Source: Candidatus Latescibacterota bacterium
GTDB taxonomy: Bacteria > Krumholzibacteriota > Krumholzibacteriia > WVZY01
Reading direction: 5' to 3'
Assembly (NCBI GenBank): GCA_011772205.1
Contig: WVZY01000017.1
Span: 1-62,993 of the forward strand
Length of the DNA stretch: 62,993 bases
How positions within the stretch are numbered: position 1 is the first letter of the stretch; every line of letters begins with the position of its first letter. This document shows positions 31,228-45,992 of the stretch, one piece after another. Below the pieces are notes generated by a model, which saw only the letters and a list, made by a program, of their open reading frames with translations, did no database searches and was not told the origin of the DNA. A program made the translations under genes and the position numbers.

Positions 31228-32203
31228 AGCATCTTCCTTTGTATCGGCTTAGAAGCAAAGCGCTTAAAACATGAGAATGCCAATAATGTATCACGGCTCC
31301 AGGCGAAAGGCGATCAGATCTACACCGATGGCACTGTGGGGAACAGGAGGCTCCCTGGGGGTGACGAACCGTTACGCAGAGCGAGGGAGGATCTCCCGCC
31401 GCAGGCGGGAAGCCGACCGAAGCGGGCGCAGGTGAGGAATCCCCCTCACACAGCAATCATACAAGCATCCTCCGCCGCAGGCGGGAAGCCCGCGCGGAGC
31501 GGGAGCGTGGTGAGGAACCCCTATGGAGCCTTTCACAACAAGGCTCATCCAGCGAAGGCGGATAGCCGAGCGAAGGGAGTGGGTGGGGTGGAACTCCCCA
31601 CGGAGTCAGCCGATAAGAGGCTCCTCCGTCGGGGGTGGGAAGCCGACAGAAGCGAGCGTGTGGGGAAAACCCCCCGAGGAGCCGACCAATAGGAGGAACC
31701 ACCGCCGGAGACGGGAAGCCGAGCAAAGCGGGCGTATGGGGAAGAACTCCCCGCGGTGCCAACCAATAGGAGGAACCTCCACCGGAGGCGGAAATCCGAG
31801 CGAAGCAGCGGGATCAGCCTCAGTGGGAGGCGCCGCTGAGTGACATGAGTTCCTCGTCGAGTACGTCGACACAATGCGCGCAACAGATCGTCATCATGTC
31901 CGGGGAGTCGCCGGATCGATTCCCCACTTCATGAAGATGCGTGAGCGAACGGCGTGGCCCCGGGGCCGTACACTAAATAACGCTGCACAGACAGAACCTC
32001 CTTGACAACTTGTGCGCGTATCCGATTTACTGGGTTTCGAAGATCGAAATCCCACGTACTCGACATGTATTAAATCGGGTTGGCGTTCAGGGGATTCTAA
32101 GCGGCCGGTGTGATCGTGAATTTGAATTTGTCTACCACGCGGCCTTGAGCCAGGTCTGTATTTCAGATCGGGCTTTTTTATTGGTAAGGAGGTGGAGTTT
32201 CGA
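31228..32203. other. Long intergenic region with tandem repeats ahead of the glycogen operon
   Basis: 31341-31835 is filled by tandem degenerate repeats described separately; open frames here just translate the repeats. 31836-32203 contains no gene. TTGACA at 32002-32007 is a perfect -35 but the candidate -10 (GATTTA at 32024-32029) is poor. AAGGAGG at 32186-32192 is the ribosome-binding site of the ParA-like gene. Confidence 0.55.
31341..31835 (-). repeat. Tandem array of the GC-rich repeat, about six degenerate units
   Basis: Units of about 75-85 bases begin near 31341, 31455, 31541, 31616, 31691 and 31768. Each runs AGG..G..(A/C)TCC.CCG..GGAGGCGGGAAGCC, then GAGCGAAGCGGGCGTGGTG, then AGGAA.CCCC.GCGGAGCC. 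The first unit carries GACGAACCGTTACGC, the inverse of the sequence shared by the copies at 61-225 and 19604-19740. Neighbouring units diverge, and no protein is likely. CRISPR is excluded because there are no constant repeats with unique spacers. Confidence 0.8.
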
Positions 32204-33280
32204 ATGCGGACCATTGCCGTGATGAACTACAAGGGAGGGTGCGGAAAAACGACAATCGCGGTCAATTTGTCGTGTGCGTTGAGTCGACTGGACAAGCGCG
32301 TTCTATTGGTCGACATCGATCCGCAATCGCACGCCACCGTCGGTCTGGGGATCGACAGCGCCGGTCTAAATGCGACGACCAGCGAACTCCTGATGGACCC
32401 GTCCGTCCGCCTGGAGGATGCGATCGTCCGGCGCACCGACACTCTGAGTGTAATTCCCGCCAGTACCGTTCTCAGTGGTGTCGAGCAAGAGCTTGCAGGC
32501 GTTGACGGCCGGGAAAGGCGGTTGGCGGAGAAGCTCTACCAGATCGGAGAGGATGCGTTCGATTTCGTTTTGATCGACTGTCCACCGAGCATCGGCGTAT
32601 TGACCTTCAACGCGCTCATCGCCTCGGGCGAGGTGTTGATTCCCGCAGATGCAAGCTACTTCTCGCTGCACGGACTCGTCAACTTACGAGAAACCATTGA
32701 TTTATTACAAGATGCGCTCGACCACCGTCTGCACGTCCGTGTCTTGTGCAACAACCTCGAAACCCGAACGCGTTTTGCCAGGGAGGTCGTCGCCGAGGTC
32801 GAAAAGATCCATTCCGGAGTGATGATCGATACGTTTATCAGCCACACGGTGAGGCTCAAAGAGTGCTCGGCAAGGGGAGTCTCCATTTTTGACATCGACG
32901 AACGCTCCAAGGTGAGCCAGCAGTTCCTGTCACTCGCGCAGGAGCTGATTGAGAAAGCACCGAAGTTGAAGACAAGAGACATGAAAGCGTGGATGGAGCG
33001 GATCCACGGTCCGAGGAAAGTCCCCGAGGGTGTGTTGTTTACATTGGAAGCCCCGAACGCGACCTTTGTGACTGTCACCGGTGATTTCACGAATTGGTCC
33101 TGGGAAGGGATTCCGCTCGTTCGTGATCCGAAAGACGGGATCTGGAAGGCCGTCATCGACATCGAACCCGGCCGGTACGAATACCGGTTCATTATAGACG
33201 GAAGGTGGTCCCGCGACCCGGCAAACACCCAGGCCATAAGGAACGAATTCGGCCAGGAGAATTCGCTCCTCGTTGTTTAG
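32204..33280 (+). CDS. ParA/MinD-type ATPase fused to a C-terminal glycogen-binding (CBM48/AMPK-beta-like) domain
   Basis: A 358-residue two-domain protein. Residues 1-255 form a ParA ATPase: deviant Walker A K10-GGCG-K15-TT, Walker A' LLVDIDPQS (about 35-42) and Walker B FVLIDCPPS (about 121-129), plus the ParA-like LIPADASYFSLHGL segment. After a short helix and linker, residues 275-358 form a carbohydrate-binding module: VTVTGDFTNWSW, DGIWKAVIDIEPGRYEYRF, IDGRWSRDP and ENSLLVV, the pattern of glycogen-binding CBM48/AMPK1. ATG at 32204 is 11 bases after AAGGAGG. It heads a co-directional glycogen operon and has no ParB partner nearby. Role inferred: ATP-dependent positioning or partitioning of glycogen granules. 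Confidence 0.93.
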   Translation: MRTIAVMNYKGGCGKTTIAVNLSCALSRLDKRVLLVDIDPQSHATVGLGIDSAGLNATTSELLMDPSVRLEDAIVRRTDTLSVIPASTVLSGVEQELAGVDGRERRLAEKLYQIGEDAFDFVLIDCPPSIGVLTFNALIASGEVLIPADASYFSLHGLVNLRETIDLLQDALDHRLHVRVLCNNLETRTRFAREVVAEVEKIHSGVMIDTFISHTVRLKECSARGVSIFDIDERSKVSQQFLSLAQELIEKAPKLKTRDMKAWMERIHGPRKVPEGVLFTLEAPNATFVTVTGDFTNWSWEGIPLVRDPKDGIWKAVIDIEPGRYEYRFIIDGRWSRDPANTQAIRNEFGQENSLLVV

Positions 33281-33998
33281 AGGCGTTTCAACTGCACCGG
33301 GCGATTGGATGCGACAACCCGGCAGCAAAATGGACCGTATATTAGCCGGATTTCTCCAGCTGTACACCTCACGGAGCCGCGCGTAATCCTGGATTGCTGC
33401 GAACCGGCTGTTCGGAACTACATCGCCCCCGGTTACAAACAGTTTCCACTTGCAAAACGCCGAATTAGTGATCTATGTTCAAGTGTACGTGCGAGCCCGT
33501 TGGTTGGTGGTATTTCCAGGTGTTACGTCTCACCCGAGCTCATTCGGAGACAGGGACTAGACACAAGGAAACCTTCCCCGTGAACGGAAGTTGGGCCGGC
33601 GATGGGTAGGCTCGTAAGGTGCTTTTCATCACTCACGTTGTGTCCGACCGAAACTTGCGAACCTCTCCGTACCGACCGATTCTCGTTGACACCCCGCCCG
33701 GTTGCAGCCGGGCCGTTTGAGCGGCTTTTTGTTAAACGCCGATTGGCTCCCAGTGTCTCGTTTGCCGACACGCATCGTCCGTTTAACATCGCCGCCCGCG
33801 AAACCAGACACCCGAGGAACGAATCCTTTGGGAGTCAGTATGCAATGCGTGTGGATCGATGGATCCTCACCGGGGTCGATGGCGACGATGGAATGTCCGG
33901 TTTATTTGACACAACCAGTTTAAAAGGTGACAGGCAAGAATTACTTTTGATCTTTTGCGATCGAGGTGTCAGTATGGAAACCAAGAAAGGAGGATGCG
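33281..33998. other. Long leader with nested inverted repeats before the CBM48 gene
   Basis: About 720 bases without a credible gene (open frames at 33602-34057 lack coding character). TGTTAAACG (33730-33738) is inversely repeated as CGTTTAACA (33780-33788), enclosing a second stem GTGTC (33753-33757) / GACAC (33767-33771). CCCGG...CCGGG at 33697-33712 is a further weak hairpin followed by a TTTTTG run at 33726. TTGACA occurs at 33906-33911 without a good -10. It may hold a second promoter and a structured RNA. Confidence 0.5.
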
Positions 33999-34343
33999 AT
34001 GAGTGGGAAGAGTTTGAAATACGCGGATCCGCAGCGAACCTCCCCGAAAAAGGCTAAAGGAGCGAGGTCGGAGAACGATACTGTGTTCGTATGCGGGCTG
34101 AAACCGACCGCCAAAGAGGTGTACCTCGTCGGCGATTTCAATGACTGGGATCCGCAGTCGGATCGGATGGTCAAGAAAAAAGGCGTGTTTCAAAAGACGA
34201 AGCGCCTGGCCCCCGGAGAATATCAGTACAAGTTCCTCGTCGATGGAGAATGGCACAGTGATCCTTCTGCGCCGAGACAGGTGCCAAACGAATTCGGCAC
34301 GACGAACAGCGTAATCCGGATCGAGGCGGGTTCCAAAAAGTGA
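33999..34343 (+). CDS. Stand-alone glycogen-binding CBM48 protein
   Basis: A 114-residue cytoplasmic protein: a basic, Lys/Ser-rich N-terminal tail (1-28) and a single CBM48/AMPK-beta-type domain (29-112: VYLVGDFNDWDPQSDRM, GEYQYKFLVDGEWHSDP, NEFGTTNSVIRI). The domain is clearly similar to the C-terminal domain of the ParA fusion upstream. Start at 33999 is set by AAAGGAGG seven bases upstream; the frame extends to 33966. It is 62 bases before the first glycosyltransferase. It probably binds glycogen and could bridge granules to enzymes or to the ParA-like ATPase. Confidence 0.88.
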   Translation: MSGKSLKYADPQRTSPKKAKGARSENDTVFVCGLKPTAKEVYLVGDFNDWDPQSDRMVKKKGVFQKTKRLAPGEYQYKFLVDGEWHSDPSAPRQVPNEFGTTNSVIRIEAGSKK

Positions 34344-34405: not shown

Positions 34406-35806
34406 ATGCGTGTATTGATGTTGGGTTGGGAATTCCCTCCCTTTATAAGCGGAGGACTGGGTACAGCATGTCGGGGGTTGACCGACGCGATGCGACGTTT
34501 GGAGACACGGATTCTGTTTGTCCTCCCCAGATCGATCGAATCGCAAGAGCATTCGTATTCGAGCGAGGAGGTTGAATCACCAGACGGAATGCCGCGCTCT
34601 AACGATACGGCGAACGTATCCGAACACCCGGCCGGGGAAGTCGAATTGTCCCCGGTACAGAGCGAAATAACAAATCCGTATCGAACAGCGACTCCACATC
34701 GAATGAATACATCGACCCGATCCGCCGAGATAAAAAAAAGGGCGCAGGAAGTCCGTATCCGGAGAGCGGGTTCGTCATCCGTTCGGGTCATGGGCGTCGG
34801 CGCGGAAGACGGGTACGACGGGGATCTGCTGCAAAAAACCCACGCTTACGCCGATCGTTGCGCAGAGCTCACGCGTCGTGAGTTGTTCGATGTGATTCAC
34901 GCTCATGATTGGATGACGTTCCCGGCCGCGATCAGGATTGCGGCGTTTTCGGGAAGACCGCTGGTCGTGCATTTACACGCCACCGAGTTCGATCGTTCGG
35001 GAGAGTGGATCAATCGGTCCGTGTTCGACATCGAACGGTGCGGCATGCATGCTGCGACGAGAGTGATCGCCGTTTCCGAAAGAACCAAACAAATCATAGT
35101 TCAAAGGTACGGCGTACCGGCCGAAAAGGTCGTGGTGGTTCACAACGGGATCGATTTCAACCCGCTCGAAGAGACCGCTCGGCACAACGGGCGGCGCGAA
35201 AAAACCGTTCTTTTCCTTGGACGTATCACGATGCAGAAAGGTCCCGAGTATTTTGTCCGGGCCGCCGCACGTGTCGCGGAATGGATGGATAAAGTGAGAT
35301 TCGTCGTCGCGGGAAAAGGCGATCAGCTGCCTTTCATCATCGGTCTCGCGAATGAATTGGGACTCGGAGACAGGGTTGAGTTCGCCGGATTCTTGCACGG
35401 TGCGGATGTGGACAGGGCGTACCGGACGGCAGATGTCTTCGCCATGCCCTCGGTCAGCGAGCCGTTCGGGCTCACCGCTCTGGAGGCGGCACGGCACGGC
35501 GTCCCGGTGATAATGTCCAAGAGCTCGGGCGTCGCCGAAGTTCTCCGGCGCGGGGCGTTGAAAGTGGATTTCTGGGACGTAGAATTAATGGCCAAAATGA
35601 TCGTCTCGGTTCTCAAGTACCCACATCTAGCCGAGACACTCCGTCGTGAGAGTGCCGCCGAGATCCGCGGACTCACATGGGATGCAGCGGCTCGCAAGTG
35701 CATAAGTTCTTATTATGATGCTTTGAAACATAGTAGCGACGGGTCGCGTTCGTTACGAGTCGAGGACGTGCAGGAAGAATTGACGGTCGTCAGCGCTTCC
35801 AACTGA
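34406..35806 (+). CDS. Glycogen synthase-like glycosyltransferase (GT4/GT-B)
   Basis: A 466-residue GT-B enzyme. The N-terminus (MLGWEFPPFISGGLGTACRG) has the sugar-nucleotide/acceptor loop GGLGT; the C-terminal half has DVIHAHDWMT, FLGRITMQKGPEYFV and the catalytic E-x7-E region MPSVSEPFGLTALEAARHG. Residues about 50-130 form a hydrophilic, Ser/Thr/Glu-rich insertion with no fold evident. Alpha-1,4-glucan synthesis from ADP- or UDP-glucose is inferred from operon context. The start follows GAGAAGCGACGA with weak spacing. Confidence 0.88.
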   Translation: MRVLMLGWEFPPFISGGLGTACRGLTDAMRRLETRILFVLPRSIESQEHSYSSEEVESPDGMPRSNDTANVSEHPAGEVELSPVQSEITNPYRTATPHRMNTSTRSAEIKKRAQEVRIRRAGSSSVRVMGVGAEDGYDGDLLQKTHAYADRCAELTRRELFDVIHAHDWMTFPAAIRIAAFSGRPLVVHLHATEFDRSGEWINRSVFDIERCGMHAATRVIAVSERTKQIIVQRYGVPAEKVVVVHNGIDFNPLEETARHNGRREKTVLFLGRITMQKGPEYFVRAAARVAEWMDKVRFVVAGKGDQLPFIIGLANELGLGDRVEFAGFLHGADVDRAYRTADVFAMPSVSEPFGLTALEAARHGVPVIMSKSSGVAEVLRRGALKVDFWDVELMAKMIVSVLKYPHLAETLRRESAAEIRGLTWDAAARKCISSYYDALKHSSDGSRSLRVEDVQEELTVVSASN

Positions 35807-35835: not shown

Positions 35836-37059
35836 GTGAAGATTGCGATGTTGTCCTGGGAGACGCTCCATTCGATATCGGTGGGTGGGGTGGCCTCGCA
35901 CGTTACCGAACTCGCTGCCGCCTTGGAGCGGCGGGGGCATGATGTCCACATTTTCACGCGAATGGCACCCGGGCAGAGATATCACGACTGGATCGACGGT
36001 GTGCATTATCACCGCTGTCCCTACCCGGGCCACAGTGACTTCGTCGACGACGTCAATAACATGTGCCGCGCGTTCGTGGAGCGCGTATTCGTCATCGAGG
36101 ATTTGTTCGGCCCCTTCGACGTCGTGCACGCCCACGACTGGCTCGCCGCAAACGCGATGATCTGGATCAAACAGGGACGCGGCCGGAAGTGCGTGCTGAC
36201 CATTCATTCGACGGAATATGCCCGCTGCGGCAACACCTTTCCAGGTGGGCGCTCCGTCCGCGTGCGCGATCAGGAGCGTGCCGGGACATACTGGGCGGAC
36301 AAGGTGATATGTGTTTCGAACGAAACCAAGAACGAGATCACTTGGATGTACGAAACACCGGAAGACAAAACGGCCGTCGTCTACAACGGCGTGAGCTCGG
36401 GCCGGTTCAACGTGGATCTCGATGTCGGCAGTACCAGGCGAGGCTATGGCATCGGTCCCATGGATCCGACCATCCTATTCTGCGGACGGCTCGAATGGCA
36501 AAAAGGTCCCGATCTCATGGTGGAAGCGATCCCACCCGTGCTTCGCTACTATTCGAACGCCAAGTTCGTCTTCGCCGGAGACGGGGGGATGAGAAACGAG
36601 CTGGAACGCCGGGCATGGCAGATCGGAGCTGGACCGGCCTGCCGGTTTCTGGGCTACCGAAACAGCGATGAAATCGTCGAGATATTCAAGCTCAGCGACG
36701 GCGTATGCGTGCCCAGCCGAAACGAACCGTTCGGGATCGTGATTCTCGAGGCTTGGAGCGCGGGGAAACCGGTGGTCGCAACGGATAGGGGCGGACCGGC
36801 GGAATTCGTGCTGCACGAATTCAACGGTTTGAGAATCTCTCCACACCCCGAATCGATCGCGTGGGGACTGGGGACGCTATTCGCCGATTTCCATCGGGCT
36901 CGATGGATGGGCGAGAACGGGCGCCGAACGGTGCTCGAACATTTCACATGGGACGTGATCGCGGGCCAAATGCTCAATGCGTACGGCATCGTGCCTTTCG
37001 AACGGGTGGTCCCGCAGGCGGTACGCGTTCCGGGAAAAGGTGAAAAGGCCGCGGCCTGA
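35836..37059 (+). CDS. Second GT4-family glycosyltransferase, glycogen synthase-like
   Basis: A 407-residue GT-B glycosyltransferase: MLSWETLHSISVGGVASHVT (acceptor/GGV loop), DVVHAHDWLAANAMIW, LFCGRLEWQKGPDLMVEAI and the E-x7-E region PSRNEPFGIVILEAWSAGKP with DRGGPAEFV. GTG start with AAAGGAAG nine bases before it, 29 bases after the first glycosyltransferase. The two are related but clearly different, so they may elongate different primers or use different donors. Confidence 0.88.
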   Translation: MKIAMLSWETLHSISVGGVASHVTELAAALERRGHDVHIFTRMAPGQRYHDWIDGVHYHRCPYPGHSDFVDDVNNMCRAFVERVFVIEDLFGPFDVVHAHDWLAANAMIWIKQGRGRKCVLTIHSTEYARCGNTFPGGRSVRVRDQERAGTYWADKVICVSNETKNEITWMYETPEDKTAVVYNGVSSGRFNVDLDVGSTRRGYGIGPMDPTILFCGRLEWQKGPDLMVEAIPPVLRYYSNAKFVFAGDGGMRNELERRAWQIGAGPACRFLGYRNSDEIVEIFKLSDGVCVPSRNEPFGIVILEAWSAGKPVVATDRGGPAEFVLHEFNGLRISPHPESIAWGLGTLFADFHRARWMGENGRRTVLEHFTWDVIAGQMLNAYGIVPFERVVPQAVRVPGKGEKAAA

Positions 37060-37152
37060 GGCGTGATCGTCGGTCGTCCGATCGGATCCGGGTTCAGCGG
37101 CGGTTGGGGTAATCAAAAACAATCAGCATCAAAACAGAGAAGACGAGTACCT

Positions 37153-38853
37153 GTGAGTGTGGGGAGTTTCTGTCTGGTTTTGCACGGGCATCTTCCGTAT
37201 GTCCTGCGTCATGGTACGTGGCCCCACGGCGAAGACTGGTTGTACGAGGCGGCTGCGGAGACCTATCTGCCTCTTTTGTCCGCGATTCAGGAGTGCGATT
37301 TCCTAAATGGCAACCCGAAACTCACCATCGGCCTGACGCCGGTCCTTCTCGAGCAGTTCATTCACGATGATTTCGAGCGTGGCTTCGAAAGATACCTCAT
37401 CGAACGTCACGAACGCGCCGTGTCGGACCGAAGAGAGTTCGAGAACACGAACAATCTTCATTTTGCCCATCTGGCCGCCAGGTGGGAGGATTTCTACGAA
37501 AACCTTGCGAAGCGATTCTCGGAGATCGGGGGCAACATCCCCGCCGCGTTCGCCGCTCTCGCGCGTCGGGGCTTCGTTGAAATCCTCACGTCGAGCGCCA
37601 CCCACGCGTACCTTCCCCTGCTTTACGAAGACTCGTCGGTCTTCGCCCAGTTTCGCGGCGGAGTGGCGACGTCGGCACGCATTCTGGGCTTCAAACCCGA
37701 GGGTGTCTGGTTACCCGAGTGCGCCTACCGTCCACCCGGCCCGTGGTATGCGCCGATTCCCTGGGGTTACACCCGCAACCGCATGGGCTCCGAACAATTC
37801 TTGGAGCGAGAAGGGCTGAGTTACTTTTTCGTCGAAAATCAGCTCATCGAACACTGCCGGAGTGAATGGGTGGACAATGCCGGATGGCAGAAGGTGGATT
37901 GGGAAGAGGCGGTCAAGTATCCAAACCGCGGATGGCGGTCGGTTCAAGAACCCGTGCGGGTGACGAGCGACGGATCGATGCCTGGACGTGTGACGGCGTT
38001 CGCCCGTGATCCGGAGATCTGCGAACAGGTCTGGTCCGGCGATATCGGATACCCCGCCGACGGTGTCTATCTCGAGTTTCACAAGAAATTCGGTGAGCGC
38101 CGCGGCTTGCGGTACTGGAAAATCACCGGATCGAAACTGGATCTCGGCGCCAAGGAACCCTACTATCCGGATGATGTCCCCGGAAAAATATACGAGCATG
38201 TGTCTCATTTCTGCGGTCGGGTCAAACAAAGGCTCCATGACTATCACAACCAAACCGGAAGGTACGGTGTCGTCGTCGCGTCTTTCGATGCGGAACTCTT
38301 CGGGCACTGGTGGTTCGAGGGACCGCAGTTTCTCCGGGACGTTCTGCTATCGCTCAATGCGGACCCGGATGTAGATCTATGCACCCCATCCGAGTATCTC
38401 GAAAATCATCCGCCGGACAAGGCGGTGGCGCTTCCCGAGGGCTCTTGGGGAGATGGAGGAGATCATCGGGTTTGGGTGAACGACAGGGTCAACTGGATGT
38501 GGGATGTGGAATACCGCTGCGAAACGCACTTCGGGAAGCTGACCTACAATCTGCCGTGGCGGAATCGTCCGGAACTCCGGGATATCCTGGAAAAGGCGGC
38601 CCGTGAACTTCTTCTGCTGCAAGCAAGCGACTGGCCGTTCGTCATCGCCCGCAACCAAGCAGTCGATTACGGGATCAAACGCTTCGTACAACACGTCGGG
38701 CGGTTCGAATGTCTCACCGATGTCGCCGAGAAAATCGCGTCGGCTCCTGATGGCCTGGATCGTCTCACCGACCTGGAAAAATTCGAAATTCGCGATGCGG
38801 AACTCCACGACGTGGTGTTTGCGGATATCGACTTGAACTGGTGGAACATGTGA
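37153..38853 (+). CDS. GH57 glycoside hydrolase, probable 1,4-alpha-glucan branching enzyme
   Basis: A 566-residue GH57 enzyme beginning at GTG 37153 with SVGSFCLVLHGHLPYVLRHG, the typical GH57 start; the frame extends to a GTG at 37063. Conserved regions: EILTSSATHAYLPLL, GVWLPECAYRP (catalytic Glu nucleophile) and SFDAELFGHWWFEGPQFL (catalytic Asp), followed by a C-terminal helical domain (DUF1957-like). This set matches GH57 branching enzymes, which form alpha-1,6 branches in glycogen. No GH13 GlgB is seen in the window. Confidence 0.87.
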   Translation: MSVGSFCLVLHGHLPYVLRHGTWPHGEDWLYEAAAETYLPLLSAIQECDFLNGNPKLTIGLTPVLLEQFIHDDFERGFERYLIERHERAVSDRREFENTNNLHFAHLAARWEDFYENLAKRFSEIGGNIPAAFAALARRGFVEILTSSATHAYLPLLYEDSSVFAQFRGGVATSARILGFKPEGVWLPECAYRPPGPWYAPIPWGYTRNRMGSEQFLEREGLSYFFVENQLIEHCRSEWVDNAGWQKVDWEEAVKYPNRGWRSVQEPVRVTSDGSMPGRVTAFARDPEICEQVWSGDIGYPADGVYLEFHKKFGERRGLRYWKITGSKLDLGAKEPYYPDDVPGKIYEHVSHFCGRVKQRLHDYHNQTGRYGVVVASFDAELFGHWWFEGPQFLRDVLLSLNADPDVDLCTPSEYLENHPPDKAVALPEGSWGDGGDHRVWVNDRVNWMWDVEYRCETHFGKLTYNLPWRNRPELRDILEKAARELLLLQASDWPFVIARNQAVDYGIKRFVQHVGRFECLTDVAEKIASAPDGLDRLTDLEKFEIRDAELHDVVFADIDLNWWNM

Positions 38854-38940: not shown

Positions 38941-41130
38941 ATGGGCTTGAATCACCGAGAGGAGAGCGCTGTGGAAATTCGGGATAGACTCAATGAGCTG
39001 GCGTGCAATCTCTACTGGACGTGGCATTCTGAAGTCTACCAGATATTCCAGGATCTCAATCCCGACTTGTGGCGGGATCTGAGCCGCAACCCGGTTGCAT
39101 TCCTCGACCGGCTGTCCGATGAGTACCTCGAAGAGAGAACGAATATCATGGCTCTCAAGTCCCGCATTACCCGCGCGTACTACACGTTGCGTGATTATCT
39201 GGAAAAGGAGGATACGTGGGGGCGCCAGTACGTCCGGTCGCTTCGCATCCGGCCGGTGGCCTATTTTTCAGCTGAATTCGGTCTTCACGAATCGCTGCCG
39301 ATTTACTCCGGCGGTCTTGGAGTGTTGTCCGGTGACCATATCAAGGCTGCGTCCGATCTCGACGTGCCGCTCACCGGTGTCGGCCTGTTGTACGCCAAGG
39401 GCTACTTCAGTCAATGCCTCGACATCAACGGGTGGCAGCAGGAACACTATTTCGACGCCGATATCAAACGCCTCCCCCTCGTGGCGGCTGCCGACCGCGA
39501 TGGCAAGCCGCTCCGGATCGTCCTGAAGACGGCGGATGACGCGATACACGTTCGAGCCTGGACGGCCAAAGTGGGCAGATGCCAATTGGTGCTGCTCGAT
39601 ACGAACGTCGAAGATAACTCGGAGGTCAACAGGGGATTGACCGCGCAGCTCTACGGCGGTGATCAACGGGTTCGTGTCCGCCAGGAGTACGTGCTTGGGA
39701 TCGGGGGTCTGCGGGCGCTGCATTTGATGGGGATCCGGCCTGGTGTGGTCCATCTCAACGAGGGTCACAGTGCCTTTGCCCTGCTCGAACTCGCCCGGTC
39801 GCTGATGGAACGCAACGGTGAGTCGTTCGACAACATCCGCGAGACGGCGGCCGGTATGAGCGTCTTCACGACCCATACGCCGGTCCCTGCCGGGCACGAT
39901 CGTTTCGACGCCGGGTTGATCGAGGAGACTCTTGGGCCGTTCAGGAAACAGATCGGTCTTTTGCCGAAGGAGTTTATGGCACTCGGCCGGACAAAACCCG
40001 ACGATGAGAATGAATCGTTTTGCATGACGGTTCTCGGTCTGAAGATGTCGAGGTCGAGAAACGCCGTATCCAATCTCCACCGGCGGGTCAGCAAAGCGAT
40101 GTGGGGTTCAATCTGGCCGAACAAATCACAGGACGAGATCCCGATCGGGCACATCACCAACGGCATCCACGTCGGAACGTGGCTTGCCCCCGACATGGAT
40201 CGTTTGTACCGACGGTGGTTGGGGGAAGACTGGCAGGAACAAATGCACGATCCCAAAACGTGGGAGTCGATCGATGACATGAACGATGAGGAACTGTGGG
40301 AGATCAATGAAATCCTCCGGAGCCACCTCGTCGATTTCGCCCGGGATCGGGTCCGCTGGCAGCGTACGGCCCGGGGCGAGCCCGACCCCACCCAGGATCC
40401 CAACACTCCGTTTCTCTACGAGACCGCTTTGACCATCGGAGTCGCTCGGCGGTTCACCCCTTACAAACGGGCGGATCTGTTGCTTCGCGATCCGGACCGG
40501 CTCGACAAGGTGATCAATAATCCCGGCAAACAGGTCCAGGTGATCTTCGCCGGCAAGGCGCATCCGCGTGATGAAGAAGGAAAGAAACTCATTCAGCGGA
40601 TCTTTACCGTGGCGCGGGATCCGCGTTTTGCGGGGAGGATCGTGTTTATCGAGGATTACGACATCAACGTGACCCGGCAGCTCGTGCAGGGCGTCGACCT
40701 TTGGCTCAACACTCCGAGGCGTCCTCTCGAGGCGTGCGGAACCAGCGGAATGAAAGCAGTTCTGAACGGCGCGCTCAATTTCTCCGTTCTCGATGGATGG
40801 TGGGCGGAAGCGTACGATGGGACGAACGGCTTCGTCATCGGTGACGGGGGAGAGCATAAGGAACCGCACGTGCAGGATCAACGAGATCTCGATTCGCTGT
40901 ACGACACGCTCGAACGAGAAGTCGTCCCCATGTTCTACGGCCGTGACGAAGACGACGTTCCCCGCGCGTGGATCCAGCGTCAGAAAAATGCAATGAGAAC
41001 ATTGGCGTGGCGTTTCAGCAGTCACCGCATGGTGACCGAGTATGTCAAGAACTGCTACGTGTCCGCCGCCGGAGGAACGACGTCGACATTCTGCCTCACG
41101 GAGTCTCCTCTCCGGACAGAAAACTGGTAA
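38941..41130 (+). CDS. glgP: Alpha-glucan (glycogen) phosphorylase
   Basis: A 729-residue GT35 phosphorylase of the short, DUF3417-containing bacterial type. The N-terminal region (ELACNLYWTWHSEVYQIFQD) is DUF3417-like; the core has FSAEFGLHESLPIYSGGLGV, TTHTPVPAGHDRF, and the PLP site EACGTSGMKAVLNGALN with the lysine that binds pyridoxal phosphate. It releases glucose-1-phosphate from glycogen ends. GGGAGA precedes the ATG. It sits between the two GH57 genes, 16 bases before the second. Confidence 0.93.
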   Translation: MGLNHREESAVEIRDRLNELACNLYWTWHSEVYQIFQDLNPDLWRDLSRNPVAFLDRLSDEYLEERTNIMALKSRITRAYYTLRDYLEKEDTWGRQYVRSLRIRPVAYFSAEFGLHESLPIYSGGLGVLSGDHIKAASDLDVPLTGVGLLYAKGYFSQCLDINGWQQEHYFDADIKRLPLVAAADRDGKPLRIVLKTADDAIHVRAWTAKVGRCQLVLLDTNVEDNSEVNRGLTAQLYGGDQRVRVRQEYVLGIGGLRALHLMGIRPGVVHLNEGHSAFALLELARSLMERNGESFDNIRETAAGMSVFTTHTPVPAGHDRFDAGLIEETLGPFRKQIGLLPKEFMALGRTKPDDENESFCMTVLGLKMSRSRNAVSNLHRRVSKAMWGSIWPNKSQDEIPIGHITNGIHVGTWLAPDMDRLYRRWLGEDWQEQMHDPKTWESIDDMNDEELWEINEILRSHLVDFARDRVRWQRTARGEPDPTQDPNTPFLYETALTIGVARRFTPYKRADLLLRDPDRLDKVINNPGKQVQVIFAGKAHPRDEEGKKLIQRIFTVARDPRFAGRIVFIEDYDINVTRQLVQGVDLWLNTPRRPLEACGTSGMKAVLNGALNFSVLDGWWAEAYDGTNGFVIGDGGEHKEPHVQDQRDLDSLYDTLEREVVPMFYGRDEDDVPRAWIQRQKNAMRTLAWRFSSHRMVTEYVKNCYVSAAGGTTSTFCLTESPLRTENW

Positions 41131-41146
41131 CCATTGGAGATCGTAC

Positions 41147-42355
41147 ATGAACACTATCAGACAGGACAATCCAGGTGCGCAGGGAACAGCGATCCGTCAC
41201 GCACTGGGGCTTCACATGCACCAGCCGCCGGACAACCTCGGGTTGCTTATCGAGGAAAACGAATGGGAAGCCCAGCAGATCATCCGGTGTTACGAAAGGG
41301 TTCCCCGATACGCCCGCAAATTCCGGGATGTGGCCCGGATCCACGTCGGATTTTCGGGGATTCTTCTCGAACAGTTCCGCTCGCCGGAGAACATCGATAG
41401 GTACCGGCATTTCGTGGACATTCCCGCGATGATCGAGAGCTACAAAGAGTCTGATAACATTGAAATCATTGGAATGGGATACTATCATCCGATCTTTCCG
41501 CTCATTCCTCGCGAGGATTGGGATGATCACCTGATATCCGGAAAACAGATCGCAGCGGAGATGTTCGGACGCGAACCCCGGGGATTCTGGCCGTCCGAGA
41601 TGGCCTTCGATATGGAGATGATTCCCGCCTTGGCAAAGACGGGTTACGAATACGTCGTGGTGGACAGTGTCCACGTCCAGCCAAAAGACGGAGCGGCCGC
41701 ACCCAATCCCTTCCAGCCCTACATCGCGCGTCACGCCGATGCCCGGATCGTCGTGGTCCCCCGAGACCGGGACATATCGAACGCTCAGGAGAGCGGTATG
41801 AACGCCGAGTGGTTTTCGGACGAAGTTTCGAACAAGGTCGAGACACGCCCGGACAACGCGGCGCCGCATCTCGTCACAACGTGGTCCGATGGTGAAAACG
41901 GGGGCTGGTTCCGTCAGATGGCGGAGGAGGCCGGATTCTTCGGTCACTTCTTTACGCCGTTTGTCGAACGGGTCAGGTCGGGTGACTCGCTGATCTCTCC
42001 TGTTCTCCTCTCCGATTTCCTCGAATACCATCCTCCCCAGACCGAGGCGCACGTCCAAACCGGGGCGTGGAACGTGGCCGACACGTCGGGGTACGATTTC
42101 TCGCAGTGGGCGGGCTCGGACAAGCAACGCGAGGCGATCGGCAAGATATTCGATGTCAGCCGCCGGTACTGGGCGCTCGCCCGGGGACGCGTCCCGGAGA
42201 ACGTACGGGACACGATGAGCCGGATCCGCCGAATCGTTCTCGAGAGTGAAACGAGCTGTTTCCTGTTTTGGGGCGACTATTGGATCCCCAAGTTGTACGA
42301 GCGAACCCGATTGGCCGAGGAATTGCTGGGTACCGTAGAACGCGCAACGCACTGA
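41147..42355 (+). CDS. GH57 glycoside hydrolase (alpha-amylase/amylopullulanase-type)
   Basis: A 402-residue GH57 protein. The start MNTIRQDNPGAQGTAIRHAL at 41147 has TTGGAG upstream; an earlier in-frame ATG (41042) lies inside the phosphorylase gene and is rejected. Motifs: ALGLHMHQPPDNL, GFWPSEMAFD (candidate nucleophile Glu) and TTWSDGENGGWFR (candidate Asp). It is shorter than and distinct from the GH57 branching enzyme upstream. Probable role: endo-type trimming of alpha-glucan. Confidence 0.87.
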   Translation: MNTIRQDNPGAQGTAIRHALGLHMHQPPDNLGLLIEENEWEAQQIIRCYERVPRYARKFRDVARIHVGFSGILLEQFRSPENIDRYRHFVDIPAMIESYKESDNIEIIGMGYYHPIFPLIPREDWDDHLISGKQIAAEMFGREPRGFWPSEMAFDMEMIPALAKTGYEYVVVDSVHVQPKDGAAAPNPFQPYIARHADARIVVVPRDRDISNAQESGMNAEWFSDEVSNKVETRPDNAAPHLVTTWSDGENGGWFRQMAEEAGFFGHFFTPFVERVRSGDSLISPVLLSDFLEYHPPQTEAHVQTGAWNVADTSGYDFSQWAGSDKQREAIGKIFDVSRRYWALARGRVPENVRDTMSRIRRIVLESETSCFLFWGDYWIPKLYERTRLAEELLGTVERATH

Positions 42356-42364
42356 CCAATTTCA

Positions 42365-43876
42365 ATGCACGTAAATATGCTACGATTGCGAGCCAATGGC
42401 ATATTATTGCACATTTCCTCGCTGCCCTCCGCTTATGGCATCGGGGATCTCGGGCCGGAAGCTTACCGGTGGGTCGATTTCCTCAAGGACGCGAAACAGG
42501 GCTTCTGGCTCGTCCTTCCAGTCAATCCGGTCACGCCGGAAAACCACCACTCTCCGTATCAGGCCACGTCCGTGTTTGCCGGAAATCCCCTTTTCATAAG
42601 CCCTTCCGGGCTTCTCGATGAGGGTCTATTGGCCCGGGAAGATCTCCATGATACTCCCCATTTTCCCGAGGATAGGGTCGATTATCCTCGAGCTGTTACC
42701 GAGAAAAGAAGGCTTCTCGACATTGCCTACCGGCGTTTCAGTACCGCAGGGCCGTCGCACGATTTCGAGGCGTTTTGCGAACGCAACTCGCACTGGCTAA
42801 AAGATTTTGCGGTTTTCACGGCGCTGGCCGAGCGGTTTCCGCAAACGAGCTGGGCGAACTGGCCGCCCCCGCTTCGGGACGGGCACCGGGACGAGATCGA
42901 CCGCCTCGTCGTGGAGCTCCGGGATTTGGTCGAGCGCACGAAGTTCTGCCAGTATATATTTAACAAACAATGGTTTCGTCTCAAGCGTTACGCGAATGAG
43001 CGGGGCGTACGGATGATCGGCGATCTTCCCTTCTACGTCGGATACGAGAGCGCGGATGTGTGGAGCCACGCGGATCTTTTCAAGCTGGATGAATCGAAGC
43101 GCCGGGAGTTCGTCGCCGGTGTTCCACCCGATGCCTTCAGTGACACCGGACAGCTGTGGGGCAACCCGGTGTACGATTGGCCCGAGCACACGGAGACCGG
43201 TTACGCCTGGTGGATTTCCCGCTTCGGACGGAACCTCGAGTTGTTCGACATGGTCCGGATCGATCACTTCAGGGGTTTCGCAGCGTACTGGGAGGTTCCC
43301 GGGGACCACGCGAACGCCGTCGACGGGAAATGGGTGAAAAGTCCCGGAGAGAACATCTTCCGGACACTGCTCAGATACTACCCGTTCCCGCCGCTCATTG
43401 CAGAGGATCTCGGTACGATCACACCTGACGTCCGTGAGTTGATGCACACCTTTGGCTTTCCCGGGATGAAGGTGATCCTCTTTGCGTTCGACGGCGACAC
43501 CGCTTCCAATCCGTACTCGGCGCACAACCATGTACGCAACTCGGTTCTTTTTACCGGAACGCACGACAACAACACGATGCGGGGCTGGTTCGAGAACGAA
43601 GCGACAGAGGAACAAAAACAGCGGTTGGCCGATTATCTGGGCCATATGCCCGGCGCCTCGGAGGTTCACTCCGATCTGATCCGGCTCGCTATGATGTCGG
43701 TCTGCAGGCTTGTCGTCGTTCCCATGCAGGATGTTCTGGGTCTCGGCAGTGAGGCACGCATGAACCGTCCCGCCGTGGCGGAGGGCAACTGGGAGTGGCG
43801 GATGAAAATGGAGCAAGCGACACCGGGCTTGGCCGAACACCTGGCCAGGCTTACGCAGATCTACGGGAGAGCCTGA
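42365..43876 (+). CDS. malQ: 4-alpha-glucanotransferase (GH77)
   Basis: A 503-residue GH77 enzyme starting MHVNMLRLRANGILLHISSL; the second ATG at 42377 is an alternative. Conserved motifs: PSAYGIGDLG, IGDLPFYVGYESADVW, DMVRIDHFRGFAAYW (catalytic Asp nucleophile), LIAEDLGTITPDV (Glu acid/base) and FTGTHDNNTM. It disproportionates maltodextrins so that phosphorylase can work on longer chains. It is nine bases after the GH57 gene and eight before the debranching enzyme. Confidence 0.94.
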   Translation: MHVNMLRLRANGILLHISSLPSAYGIGDLGPEAYRWVDFLKDAKQGFWLVLPVNPVTPENHHSPYQATSVFAGNPLFISPSGLLDEGLLAREDLHDTPHFPEDRVDYPRAVTEKRRLLDIAYRRFSTAGPSHDFEAFCERNSHWLKDFAVFTALAERFPQTSWANWPPPLRDGHRDEIDRLVVELRDLVERTKFCQYIFNKQWFRLKRYANERGVRMIGDLPFYVGYESADVWSHADLFKLDESKRREFVAGVPPDAFSDTGQLWGNPVYDWPEHTETGYAWWISRFGRNLELFDMVRIDHFRGFAAYWEVPGDHANAVDGKWVKSPGENIFRTLLRYYPFPPLIAEDLGTITPDVRELMHTFGFPGMKVILFAFDGDTASNPYSAHNHVRNSVLFTGTHDNNTMRGWFENEATEEQKQRLADYLGHMPGASEVHSDLIRLAMMSVCRLVVVPMQDVLGLGSEARMNRPAVAEGNWEWRMKMEQATPGLAEHLARLTQIYGRA

Positions 43877-43883
43877 TGGGCGG

Positions 43884-45992
43884 ATGCCTATGAAGATATC
43901 CAGGGGACGTCCTTATCCGTTAGGGAGCGCATACGACGGAGGAGGCACCAACTTCTCCGTCTTCTCATCGATCGCTCAAAAGGTCGAAGTGTGCTTTTTC
44001 GACGATAACCACAATGAGCGGCGGTTCGAACTCCCCGGACAACACGGATCCGTCTGGCACGGTTACTTCGAATCGATCGCCCCCGGGCAGCGGTATGGTT
44101 TCCGGGTCCACGGTCCGTGGGATCCCGCGGAGGGCCACCTGTGCAATCCACAGAAACTCCTACTCGATCCGTACGGCAAGGCTGTCGATGGGAGTGTGAC
44201 GTGGGACGATTCTCTCTTCCCATTGGATCCCGAAAATCCGGCGTCTCCGGTGAACAACGAAGACACGGCGCCGTTCGTGCCGAAGTCCGTTGTCGTTGAT
44301 ACAGTCTTCGACTGGCAGAATGGGGCGCCCTTGAGAATGCGGCTCGAGGACACGGTCATTTATGAAGTGCACGTCAAGGGCTTCACCATCCGGCATCCCG
44401 AGATACCGCCCGAGCTGCGCGGGACCTATGCGGCGTTGGCCCACCCCGCGTCCATCGAACATCTCATGCGGCTGGGTGTGACCGCGGTGGAACTGCTCCC
44501 TATCCAACAGTTCGTTCATCGGCGTCGCCTCGCCGATCTGGGTCTTCGCAACTACTGGGGTTACGATCCCATTTGTCTATTTGCACCGCACAACGAGTAC
44601 GCCAGCGACCAGAGCCCCGGAGGTGCTGTGAACGAGTTCAAAGAGATGATCCGCTCATTCCATGCGGTGGGAATCGAGGTCATCATGGACGTCGTATTCA
44701 ATCATACCGCGGAGGGAGGGTCAAACGGTCCAATCCTCGGGTTCAAGGGCCTCGACAACAGCACGTACTACCGGCTGAAGCCCGGCAATCGTATCGAGCA
44801 CATCGACTATACCGGTACCCGGAACACGCTGAGAACCGATCACACTCAGGTGCGGCAGTTGATCCTCGATTCCCTTCGCTACTGGGCGACCGAGATGCAA
44901 GTCGACGGCTTCCGGTTCGATCTCGCTCCCGTACTGGCACGCGAGGGGGACGCCATCGATTTCGAGAATGCGTTTTTCACCGCCGTTCGCCGGGATCCGG
45001 CGTTGAGCCGTGTCAAGCTCATCGCCGAGCCGTGGGATCTCAGGGACGATGGCTACCAGCTGGGCCGGTTTCCCGCGGAGTGGTCGGAGTGGAACGACAA
45101 ATACCGCGACGATATCCGGGACTTCTGGGGCGGGCGCGGTGGTGCGGCAGGCCGATTCGCGATGCGTTTTGCCGGGAGCCCGGACATTTTTGCAACGGGA
45201 GAGAAACCGCCACAGGTCAGTGTGAATATGGTTACCTGCCATGACGGATTTACGCTGCATGACCTCGTATCGTACGAGACGAAGCACAACGAGGCTAACG
45301 GCGAGGGAAACAGCGACGGTCACGACGACAACCGCTCGTGGAACTGCGGAGTGGAAGGACCGTCGGACGATGCCGATATCAACGCCCTCCGCGCCCGCCA
45401 GAAACGGAACTTCCTCGCAACGCTGCTCCTCTCGCATGGTGTGCCGATGCTTCTCGGCGGCGATGAACTGGGAAGGACTCAGCGTGGCAACAACAACGCC
45501 TATTGCCAGGACAACGAGATGTCCTGGTTCGACTGGGAAGGCGCCGACCAAGAGCTACTCGAGTTCGTCTCGTTTTTGACGCGTCTTCGGAAGCAACACG
45601 CCATAACCAACCAGAGAGCGTGGCCTCATCCGGGCGGCTCGGGTGCCAAGGAGCCGTTGACTCACGTGTGGTACGACGCGGGCGGCAGCGAAATCCAGAC
45701 GGCGGGCCTGGAGAATTCCGATCCACAACCGCTCCAAGTCCTGATCTCGGCTCGTTTCGAAGAAAAGGCGAACAGCGGCGAAACAACGTCGGTAGACGAT
45801 ATGCTCGTCATGTTCAATCCCACAGAGATCGAAGCCACATTCCAAATCCCCGACTCGAGCCCTTCCGATCCGTGGCACGCAGTGCTGGATACAGCGCCTT
45901 CGGTTCAACCAGGTCCGGTACGAACCGCTCAGGCCGGTGAGATGGTCACATCGATCCCGCATTCACTCATCGTGTGGGTCCGCCGGGCATAA
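43884..45992 (+). CDS. glgX: Glycogen debranching enzyme (GlgX/TreX-type, GH13)
   Basis: A 702-residue isoamylase-type enzyme. N-terminal CBM48 region (PLGSAYDGGGTNFSVFS), then GH13 motifs EVIMDVVFNHTAEG, DGFRFDLAPVLARE (Asp nucleophile), LIAEPWDLRDDGY (Glu acid/base) and NMVTCHDGFTLHDLV (transition-state Asp). GGDELGRTQRGNNNAYCQD is the usual GlgX signature. It removes alpha-1,6 branches. It is the last gene of the operon; ATG at 43884 or 43890. Confidence 0.95.
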   Translation: MPMKISRGRPYPLGSAYDGGGTNFSVFSSIAQKVEVCFFDDNHNERRFELPGQHGSVWHGYFESIAPGQRYGFRVHGPWDPAEGHLCNPQKLLLDPYGKAVDGSVTWDDSLFPLDPENPASPVNNEDTAPFVPKSVVVDTVFDWQNGAPLRMRLEDTVIYEVHVKGFTIRHPEIPPELRGTYAALAHPASIEHLMRLGVTAVELLPIQQFVHRRRLADLGLRNYWGYDPICLFAPHNEYASDQSPGGAVNEFKEMIRSFHAVGIEVIMDVVFNHTAEGGSNGPILGFKGLDNSTYYRLKPGNRIEHIDYTGTRNTLRTDHTQVRQLILDSLRYWATEMQVDGFRFDLAPVLAREGDAIDFENAFFTAVRRDPALSRVKLIAEPWDLRDDGYQLGRFPAEWSEWNDKYRDDIRDFWGGRGGAAGRFAMRFAGSPDIFATGEKPPQVSVNMVTCHDGFTLHDLVSYETKHNEANGEGNSDGHDDNRSWNCGVEGPSDDADINALRARQKRNFLATLLLSHGVPMLLGGDELGRTQRGNNNAYCQDNEMSWFDWEGADQELLEFVSFLTRLRKQHAITNQRAWPHPGGSGAKEPLTHVWYDAGGSEIQTAGLENSDPQPLQVLISARFEEKANSGETTSVDDMLVMFNPTEIEATFQIPDSSPSDPWHAVLDTAPSVQPGPVRTAQAGEMVTSIPHSLIVWVRRA

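Follow-up and report, generated by a model that had tools for sequence, protein, structure and literature searches.

Plasmids, chromosomes, carboxysomes and chemoreceptor arrays are positioned in the cell by ATPases of the ParA/MinD group, none of which is known to act on a polysaccharide. In the McdA/McdB system a ParA-type ATPase has been proposed to position a carbon-related body, the carboxysome, and in both ParAB and McdAB the cargo is marked by the partner protein (PMC13052382). Storage granules are tied to the nucleoid by single proteins that bind both, namely PhaM, PhaF and PhaH for PHB and AlgP for polyphosphate (PMC13052382). Carboxysomes, magnetosomes, PHB and polyphosphate are all treated in a review on the positioning of bacterial organelles that makes no mention of glycogen (PMC13052382), and glycogen is also unmentioned in a survey of ParA/MinD cargos.

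The window analysed here, a stretch of 62,993 nucleotides from a Candidatus Latescibacterota bacterium (contig WVZY01000017.1), encodes at 32204-33280 an intact ParA ATPase ending in a CBM48/AMPK-beta module. We put at about 0.4 the probability of our main reading, that this protein represents a family of ParA-type positioning ATPases with their own alpha-glucan-binding module, which may tether or spread glucan. Neither a ParA-CBM48 protein nor ParA-type glycogen positioning was found in the open-licence literature, where absence is not proof, in agreement with the first-pass annotation, whose author was aware of no described bacterial system of this kind.

Domain composition and predicted structure of the fusion protein

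The fusion ORF runs uninterrupted from an ATG at 32204 to a stop that ends at 33280, with 358 codons preceded by a strong Shine-Dalgarno sequence, AAGGAGGTGGAG. The gene, its domains and its leader are as follows:

32204-33280, plus strand: ParA-CBM48 fusion gene, 358 amino acids (ORF with Shine-Dalgarno sequence, Pfam, orthologues, AlphaFold2 model)
32204-32956, plus strand: ParA ATPase domain, residues 1-251 (AAA_31, Foldseek, residue conservation)
32957-33025, plus strand: linker, residues 252-274, with a conserved LHGP-type element (pLDDT drop, alignment)
33026-33277, plus strand: CBM48/AMPK-beta glycogen-binding module, residues 275-358 (Pfam, AMPK beta-2 match, Trp conservation)
32147-32179, plus strand: leader hairpin and T-run just 5' of the Shine-Dalgarno sequence, attenuator-like (alignment, folding, terminator scan)

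Three Pfam families matched the protein above their curated cut-offs: AAA_31 at residues 1-177 (3.7e-51), AMPK1_CBM at residues 286-357 (1.8e-11; 44.5 bits against a cut-off of 26.8) and CBM_48 at residues 274-332 (6.6e-10; 39.6 bits against 22.4). When the C-terminal 85 amino acids were searched alone, the glycogen-binding domain of AMPK beta-2 was the top match (2.7e-10), followed by AMPK beta-1, the SEX4/DSP4 glucan phosphatases (SEX4 at 2.6e-5) and GlgB, and among solved structures the AMPK beta subunits are nearest to the module. The ParA domain also passed the Pfam cut-off for BcsQ (3e-12), but at 77.2 bits it missed the equivalog cut-off of NCBIfam BcsQ (TIGR03371; 157.85 bits). The first-pass annotation had read this gene as a ParA ATPase fused to a glycogen-binding module, and the profile and sequence matches bear this out.

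An AlphaFold2 model built with 23 sequences had a mean pLDDT of 85.2 and consisted of the ParA domain, a weakly predicted linker at residues 251-270 (pLDDT about 56) and a beta-rich C-terminus. Foldseek matched the model to Soj (9a6n; TM 0.92 of the target, 3.2e-27), to ATP-bound ParA (8ray; TM 0.91 of the target) and to McdA (6non), and the fusion matched ParA 8ray at 7e-47, which together identify a ParA fold. The modelling that the first-pass annotation had proposed supported its ParA domain in this way, but no CBM structure appeared among the top 50 Foldseek matches, which were mostly ParA/MinD-type ATPases. Because ParA matches fill these positions, the CBM fold is assigned from sequence and predicted strands.

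Conservation of individual residues was counted over 92-93 fusion proteins from two phyla. Walker A residues K10 and K15, D39 of Walker A' and D125 of Walker B were invariant wherever a sequence covered the position, giving the fusions the deviant Walker A with its signature lysine and the two aspartates that characterise ParA/MinD ATPases. R188 was arginine in 88 of 93 fusions and R217 arginine or lysine in 79 of 93; these positions presumably correspond to the two DNA-binding arginines of Bacillus subtilis Soj. Two arginines are needed for DNA binding by Soj (PMC7229837). The positions that presumably match them have stayed mostly basic, which is consistent with a fusion protein that may bind DNA.

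W298 and W335 were invariant in 93 fusions, N353 was N or D throughout, and R328 was basic (R or K) in 80 of 93, being an arginine in the window protein and a lysine in some relatives. We take these residues to correspond to W100, W133, N150 and K126 of AMPK beta, respectively. The fusions therefore carry the two sugar-stacking tryptophans and the Lys/Asn contact positions typical of CBM48/AMPK-beta modules, while the position equivalent to AMPK-beta Thr148 was variable. Conservation of glucan-contact residues across the family suggests that the module may bind glycogen. Of the motifs named in the first-pass annotation, KGGCGKTT, the conserved tryptophan and DGRW were all recovered, but the conserved lysine was not, its AMPK-beta equivalent being Arg328 in the window protein.

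The leader of the fusion gene (32002-32179) is conserved with those of both fusion copies in the closed relative G004 and contains a TTGACA box, then a hairpin and T-run ahead of the Shine-Dalgarno sequence. The hairpin at 32147-32179 has a folding energy of -15.0 kcal/mol (z -4.1), and hairpin and T-run occur in all three leaders with z of about -4 each. This element looks like a transcription attenuator. Rfam matched no known regulatory RNA in the window, and a promoter scan did not find a full sigma-70 promoter in the leader. A non-coding tandem repeat (31564-31810; 77-bp unit, 3.2 copies) lies upstream of the fusion.

Distribution and origin of the family

Full-length orthologues of the fusion with 40-72% identity were present in most of the relatives first sampled. 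Across the window's phylum, which is one class in the genome collection used, the fusion was found in 62 of 80 species genomes, and G037 is counted as one further carrier because the contig break in this genome falls within the fusion, beside the partner gene P1 described below. 142 of 193 sampled Omnitrophota genomes matched the fusion at E <= 1e-75, and the CBM module was present in all 60 Omnitrophota loci fetched, with a longer linker in some. Because the fusion recurs at full length in dozens of independent genomes, chance or misassembly is excluded, and the ParA-CBM48 fusion is a conserved family in two phyla, not a local accident.

A ParA-domain tree placed every fusion on one side of a branch, with plain ParAs on the other (support 100/100). 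The fusion could thus have arisen once, though this is unproven. Genomes carrying the fusion also keep separate plain ParAs. No fusion was seen in 28 genomes, a thin sample chosen for their plain ParAs and drawn mostly from other phyla. The closed genome G004 holds two fusion copies (L107 and L108), each with P1.

The window genome contains six AMPK1_CBM matches (contigs C33, C34 and C69), including matches in ORFs of 735 and 961 amino acids, which indicates that glycogen-binding modules are widely reused there.

Gene neighbourhood and the proposed link to glycogen genes

Downstream of the fusion, the window holds the following features:

33281-33998, no strand: non-coding gap of 719 bp, the place of P1 in relatives (ORF map, P1 searches)
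33710-33727, plus strand: intrinsic-terminator-like hairpin, separating the fusion from the glycogen genes (terminator scan)
33999-34343, plus strand: stand-alone CBM48/AMPK-beta protein, 114 amino acids (AMPK1_CBM 1.4e-17)
34406-35806, plus strand: glycosyltransferase, GT4/GT5-like, glycogen-synthase-like (family profile matches)
35836-37059, plus strand: glycosyltransferase (best NCBIfam match glgA_Coryne, 1.3e-39, under the cut-off of that model)
37063-38853, plus strand: GH57 1,4-alpha-glucan branching enzyme (family profile matches)
38941-41130, plus strand: alpha-glucan phosphorylase, TIGR02094 (family profile matches)
41141-42355, plus strand: second GH57 family protein (family profile match)
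42365-43876, plus strand: 4-alpha-glucanotransferase MalQ, GH77 (family profile matches)
43884-45992, plus strand: glycogen debranching enzyme GlgX (family profile matches)

The first-pass annotation had placed the fusion at the head of a glycogen operon. Glycogen genes do follow it on the same strand, but the non-coding gap and the terminator-like hairpin lie between them, and the fusion gene is therefore probably transcribed on its own. As a general setting the proposed link was only partly borne out: most relatives in the window's phylum have other neighbours. The window and G004 are the only places in the phylum where the fusion has adjoining glycogen genes, and those of G004 are a remnant: P1 follows the fusion, then come a CBM protein and a truncated glycosyltransferase, and the remaining operon is gone. 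Elsewhere in the phylum, fusion and P1 lie beside DUF212/PAP2-like, solute-binding, peptidase or exopolysaccharide-type genes. In one large family (L122-L134) they are followed by an exopolysaccharide-like cluster with O-antigen-ligase-like, glycosyltransferase and WecA/MraY-like genes.

Among the Omnitrophota, alpha-glucan enzymes were encoded near the fusion in 20 of 60 loci, which are mutually related (16 with GH57, three with phosphorylase and one branching-enzyme-like), and the 16 GH57 genes lie a fixed short distance upstream of the fusion. A second arrangement in this phylum (L159-L218) runs from an Alginate_exp porin, often through GH57, to a gene termed c1, the fusion, a DUF4870-like gene and a basic protein. 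The Alginate_exp outer-membrane protein is encoded upstream in 31 of the 60 loci, and c1, which has one hydrophobic segment by sequence and no Pfam match, in 33. In a third arrangement (14 loci of 60), the fusion and a P1-type gene lie upstream of the division genes mraZ/rsmH.

Co-occurrence of the fusion with glycogen genes, also raised in the first-pass annotation, was seen in the 20 Omnitrophota loci, but across the genomes of the window's phylum it was weak: GlgP occurred in 52 of the 62 fusion-bearing genomes against 11 of the 18 others (P = 0.05), and GT5-type GlgA in 51 of 62 and 12 of 18, respectively (P = 0.19). GlgP and GlgA are both missing from five of the fusion-bearing genomes, all incomplete except the closed G004. 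The latter, from the same family as the window genome, has two fusions and no GlgP, GT5-type GlgA or GH57, so the fusion is not strictly dependent on a classical glycogen pathway.

The partner gene P1

In the other members of the window's phylum the fusion is almost always followed directly, usually within about 60 bp, by P1, a conserved partner that the first-pass annotation had overlooked and that the window genome lacks. P1 encodes 240-320 amino acids with a conserved N-terminal motif (HIRDIAHLYLS or LKDVSHLFLS), and four P1 proteins scanned matched no Pfam family. The region after the motif aligned with the ParA N-terminus (hhalign E 1e-5, 52 columns) and weakly with FleN (0.003). This region is missing the Walker A motif, so P1 looks like a degenerate ParA. 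Its structure, predicted from one sequence, had a pLDDT of 34, too low to be informative. A class-wide search returned strong P1 matches adjoining fusions; the contigs of G035 and G037 are broken at that point, and in G005 the C-terminal half of P1 follows a run of N.

In 14 of the 60 Omnitrophota loci the fusion is likewise followed by a P1-type gene (c6), and a P1 motif matrix scored c6 as P1-type (8.7). The neighbour c1 (IYEHLAKIYLD) resembled the motif by eye only and was rejected with a matrix score of -5.7 against a background of -6.2. A ParB-type ParA-binding motif at the N-terminus of P1 and c6 was likewise rejected, as the ParB matrix score was like background.

The sole P1 match in the window genome was the fusion's own ParA N-terminus. 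A relocated or relic P1 was rejected, with no other match in the genome and none convincing within the window. In L027, P1 and a gap of about 750 bp occupy the place of the window's 719-bp gap, from which P1 seems to be cleanly missing in the window.

Possible functions of the fusion

In the positioning reading that we favour, the ParA part would form ATP-dependent dimers on nucleoid DNA while the CBM48 module would hold alpha-glucan particles or glucan-bound enzyme clusters. ATP-driven cycling could then tether or spread this cargo, keeping the store evenly spaced or dividing it between daughter cells, and the fusion may partition glycogen granules as the first-pass annotation had suggested. 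The reading draws on the preserved ATPase and glucan-contact residues, the model's match to Soj/ParA and McdA, and the alpha-glucan genes close to some fusions. Weighing against it are the rarity of adjoining glycogen genes in the window's phylum, the gene content of G004, the weak correlation with GlgP and GlgA, and a geometry unlike that of ParAB and McdAB. Where P1 is adjacent, as in most members of the window's phylum, it probably serves as a binding partner of the ATPase that regulates the cycle. With P1 gone from the window genome, another factor must set the cycle there or the protein works without one. A more specific form of this reading, in which a nucleoid-based ParA in two phyla positions glycogen by gripping the polysaccharide, under the control of P1 in most members of the window's phylum, is put forward tentatively.

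The CBM of the AMPK beta subunit lets glycogen influence the kinase, and the close relationship of the fusion's module to these subunits raises the possibility, on balance doubtful, of a glucan-sensing switch in which glycogen on CBM48 alters the ATPase or dimer state of ParA to act on division, envelope growth or expression. Such a switch would suit the weak tie of the fusion to glycogen genes, the placement of the CBM on the ATPase and not on a cargo adaptor, and the 14 Omnitrophota loci upstream of division genes. However, CBM48 is a plain anchor in many enzymes too, no effector partner was identified, and G004 has no obvious glycogen pathway to sense. The variety of neighbours, and the persistence of a fusion where glycogen genes are missing, would fit a CBM48-like module that no longer binds carbohydrate and is a protein-interaction or folding domain of an otherwise ordinary cargo ParA, and the variable Thr148 position points the same way. 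We consider this improbable, since the two tryptophans are invariant and the other contact positions largely kept down to about 40% identity.

Neighbours with roles at the envelope could point instead to a ParA that, like BcsQ or CpsD, places a machine for polysaccharide synthesis or export, with the CBM binding a nascent or precursor glucan and not stored glycogen. The exopolysaccharide-like cluster of L122-L134, the frequent Alginate_exp and c1 genes of the Omnitrophota and the match to Pfam BcsQ are in line with this. We nevertheless regard it as unlikely, as CBM48 is typical of alpha-1,4-glucans, the NCBIfam BcsQ cut-off was missed, and envelope neighbours are not common to different families.

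Comparison with known systems

With the ParA-CBM48 family, which occurs in two phyla known mainly through metagenomes, the placement, sharing or sensing of glycogen becomes directly testable on one protein, and its loci supply P1 as an undescribed partner family. With ParA/Soj of ParABS the fusion shares its fold, Walker motifs and the positions of the DNA-contact arginines. It differs in its C-terminal CBM48, in its separation from plain ParAs in the tree and in its neighbours, with no ParB-like neighbour found: adjacent P1 or c6 was not recognised as ParB, and the window genome has no neighbouring partner.

BcsQ (cellulose) and the BY-kinases CpsD and Wzc are also ParA-like P-loop ATPases linked to polysaccharide production, but unlike the fusion they have no CBM. 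AMPK beta and SEX4/DSP4 resemble it in joining a CBM48-type glycogen or starch module to a signalling enzyme; these are eukaryotic, and the enzyme is a kinase or phosphatase where the fusion has a ParA ATPase. PhaM, PhaF, PhaH and AlgP, which link storage granules to the nucleoid, are not ParA ATPases. McdA is, like the fusion, a ParA-type ATPase and matched it in fold; in the family hits and neighbour clusters that were inspected, no carboxysome or microcompartment genes were found, and the N-terminal part of P1 resembles ParA, which is not known of McdB. The geometry of the fusion is unusual in that the partner, and not the ATPase, marks the cargo in ParAB and McdAB, whereas in the ParA-CBM48 protein the putative cargo-binding domain is fused to the ATPase itself.
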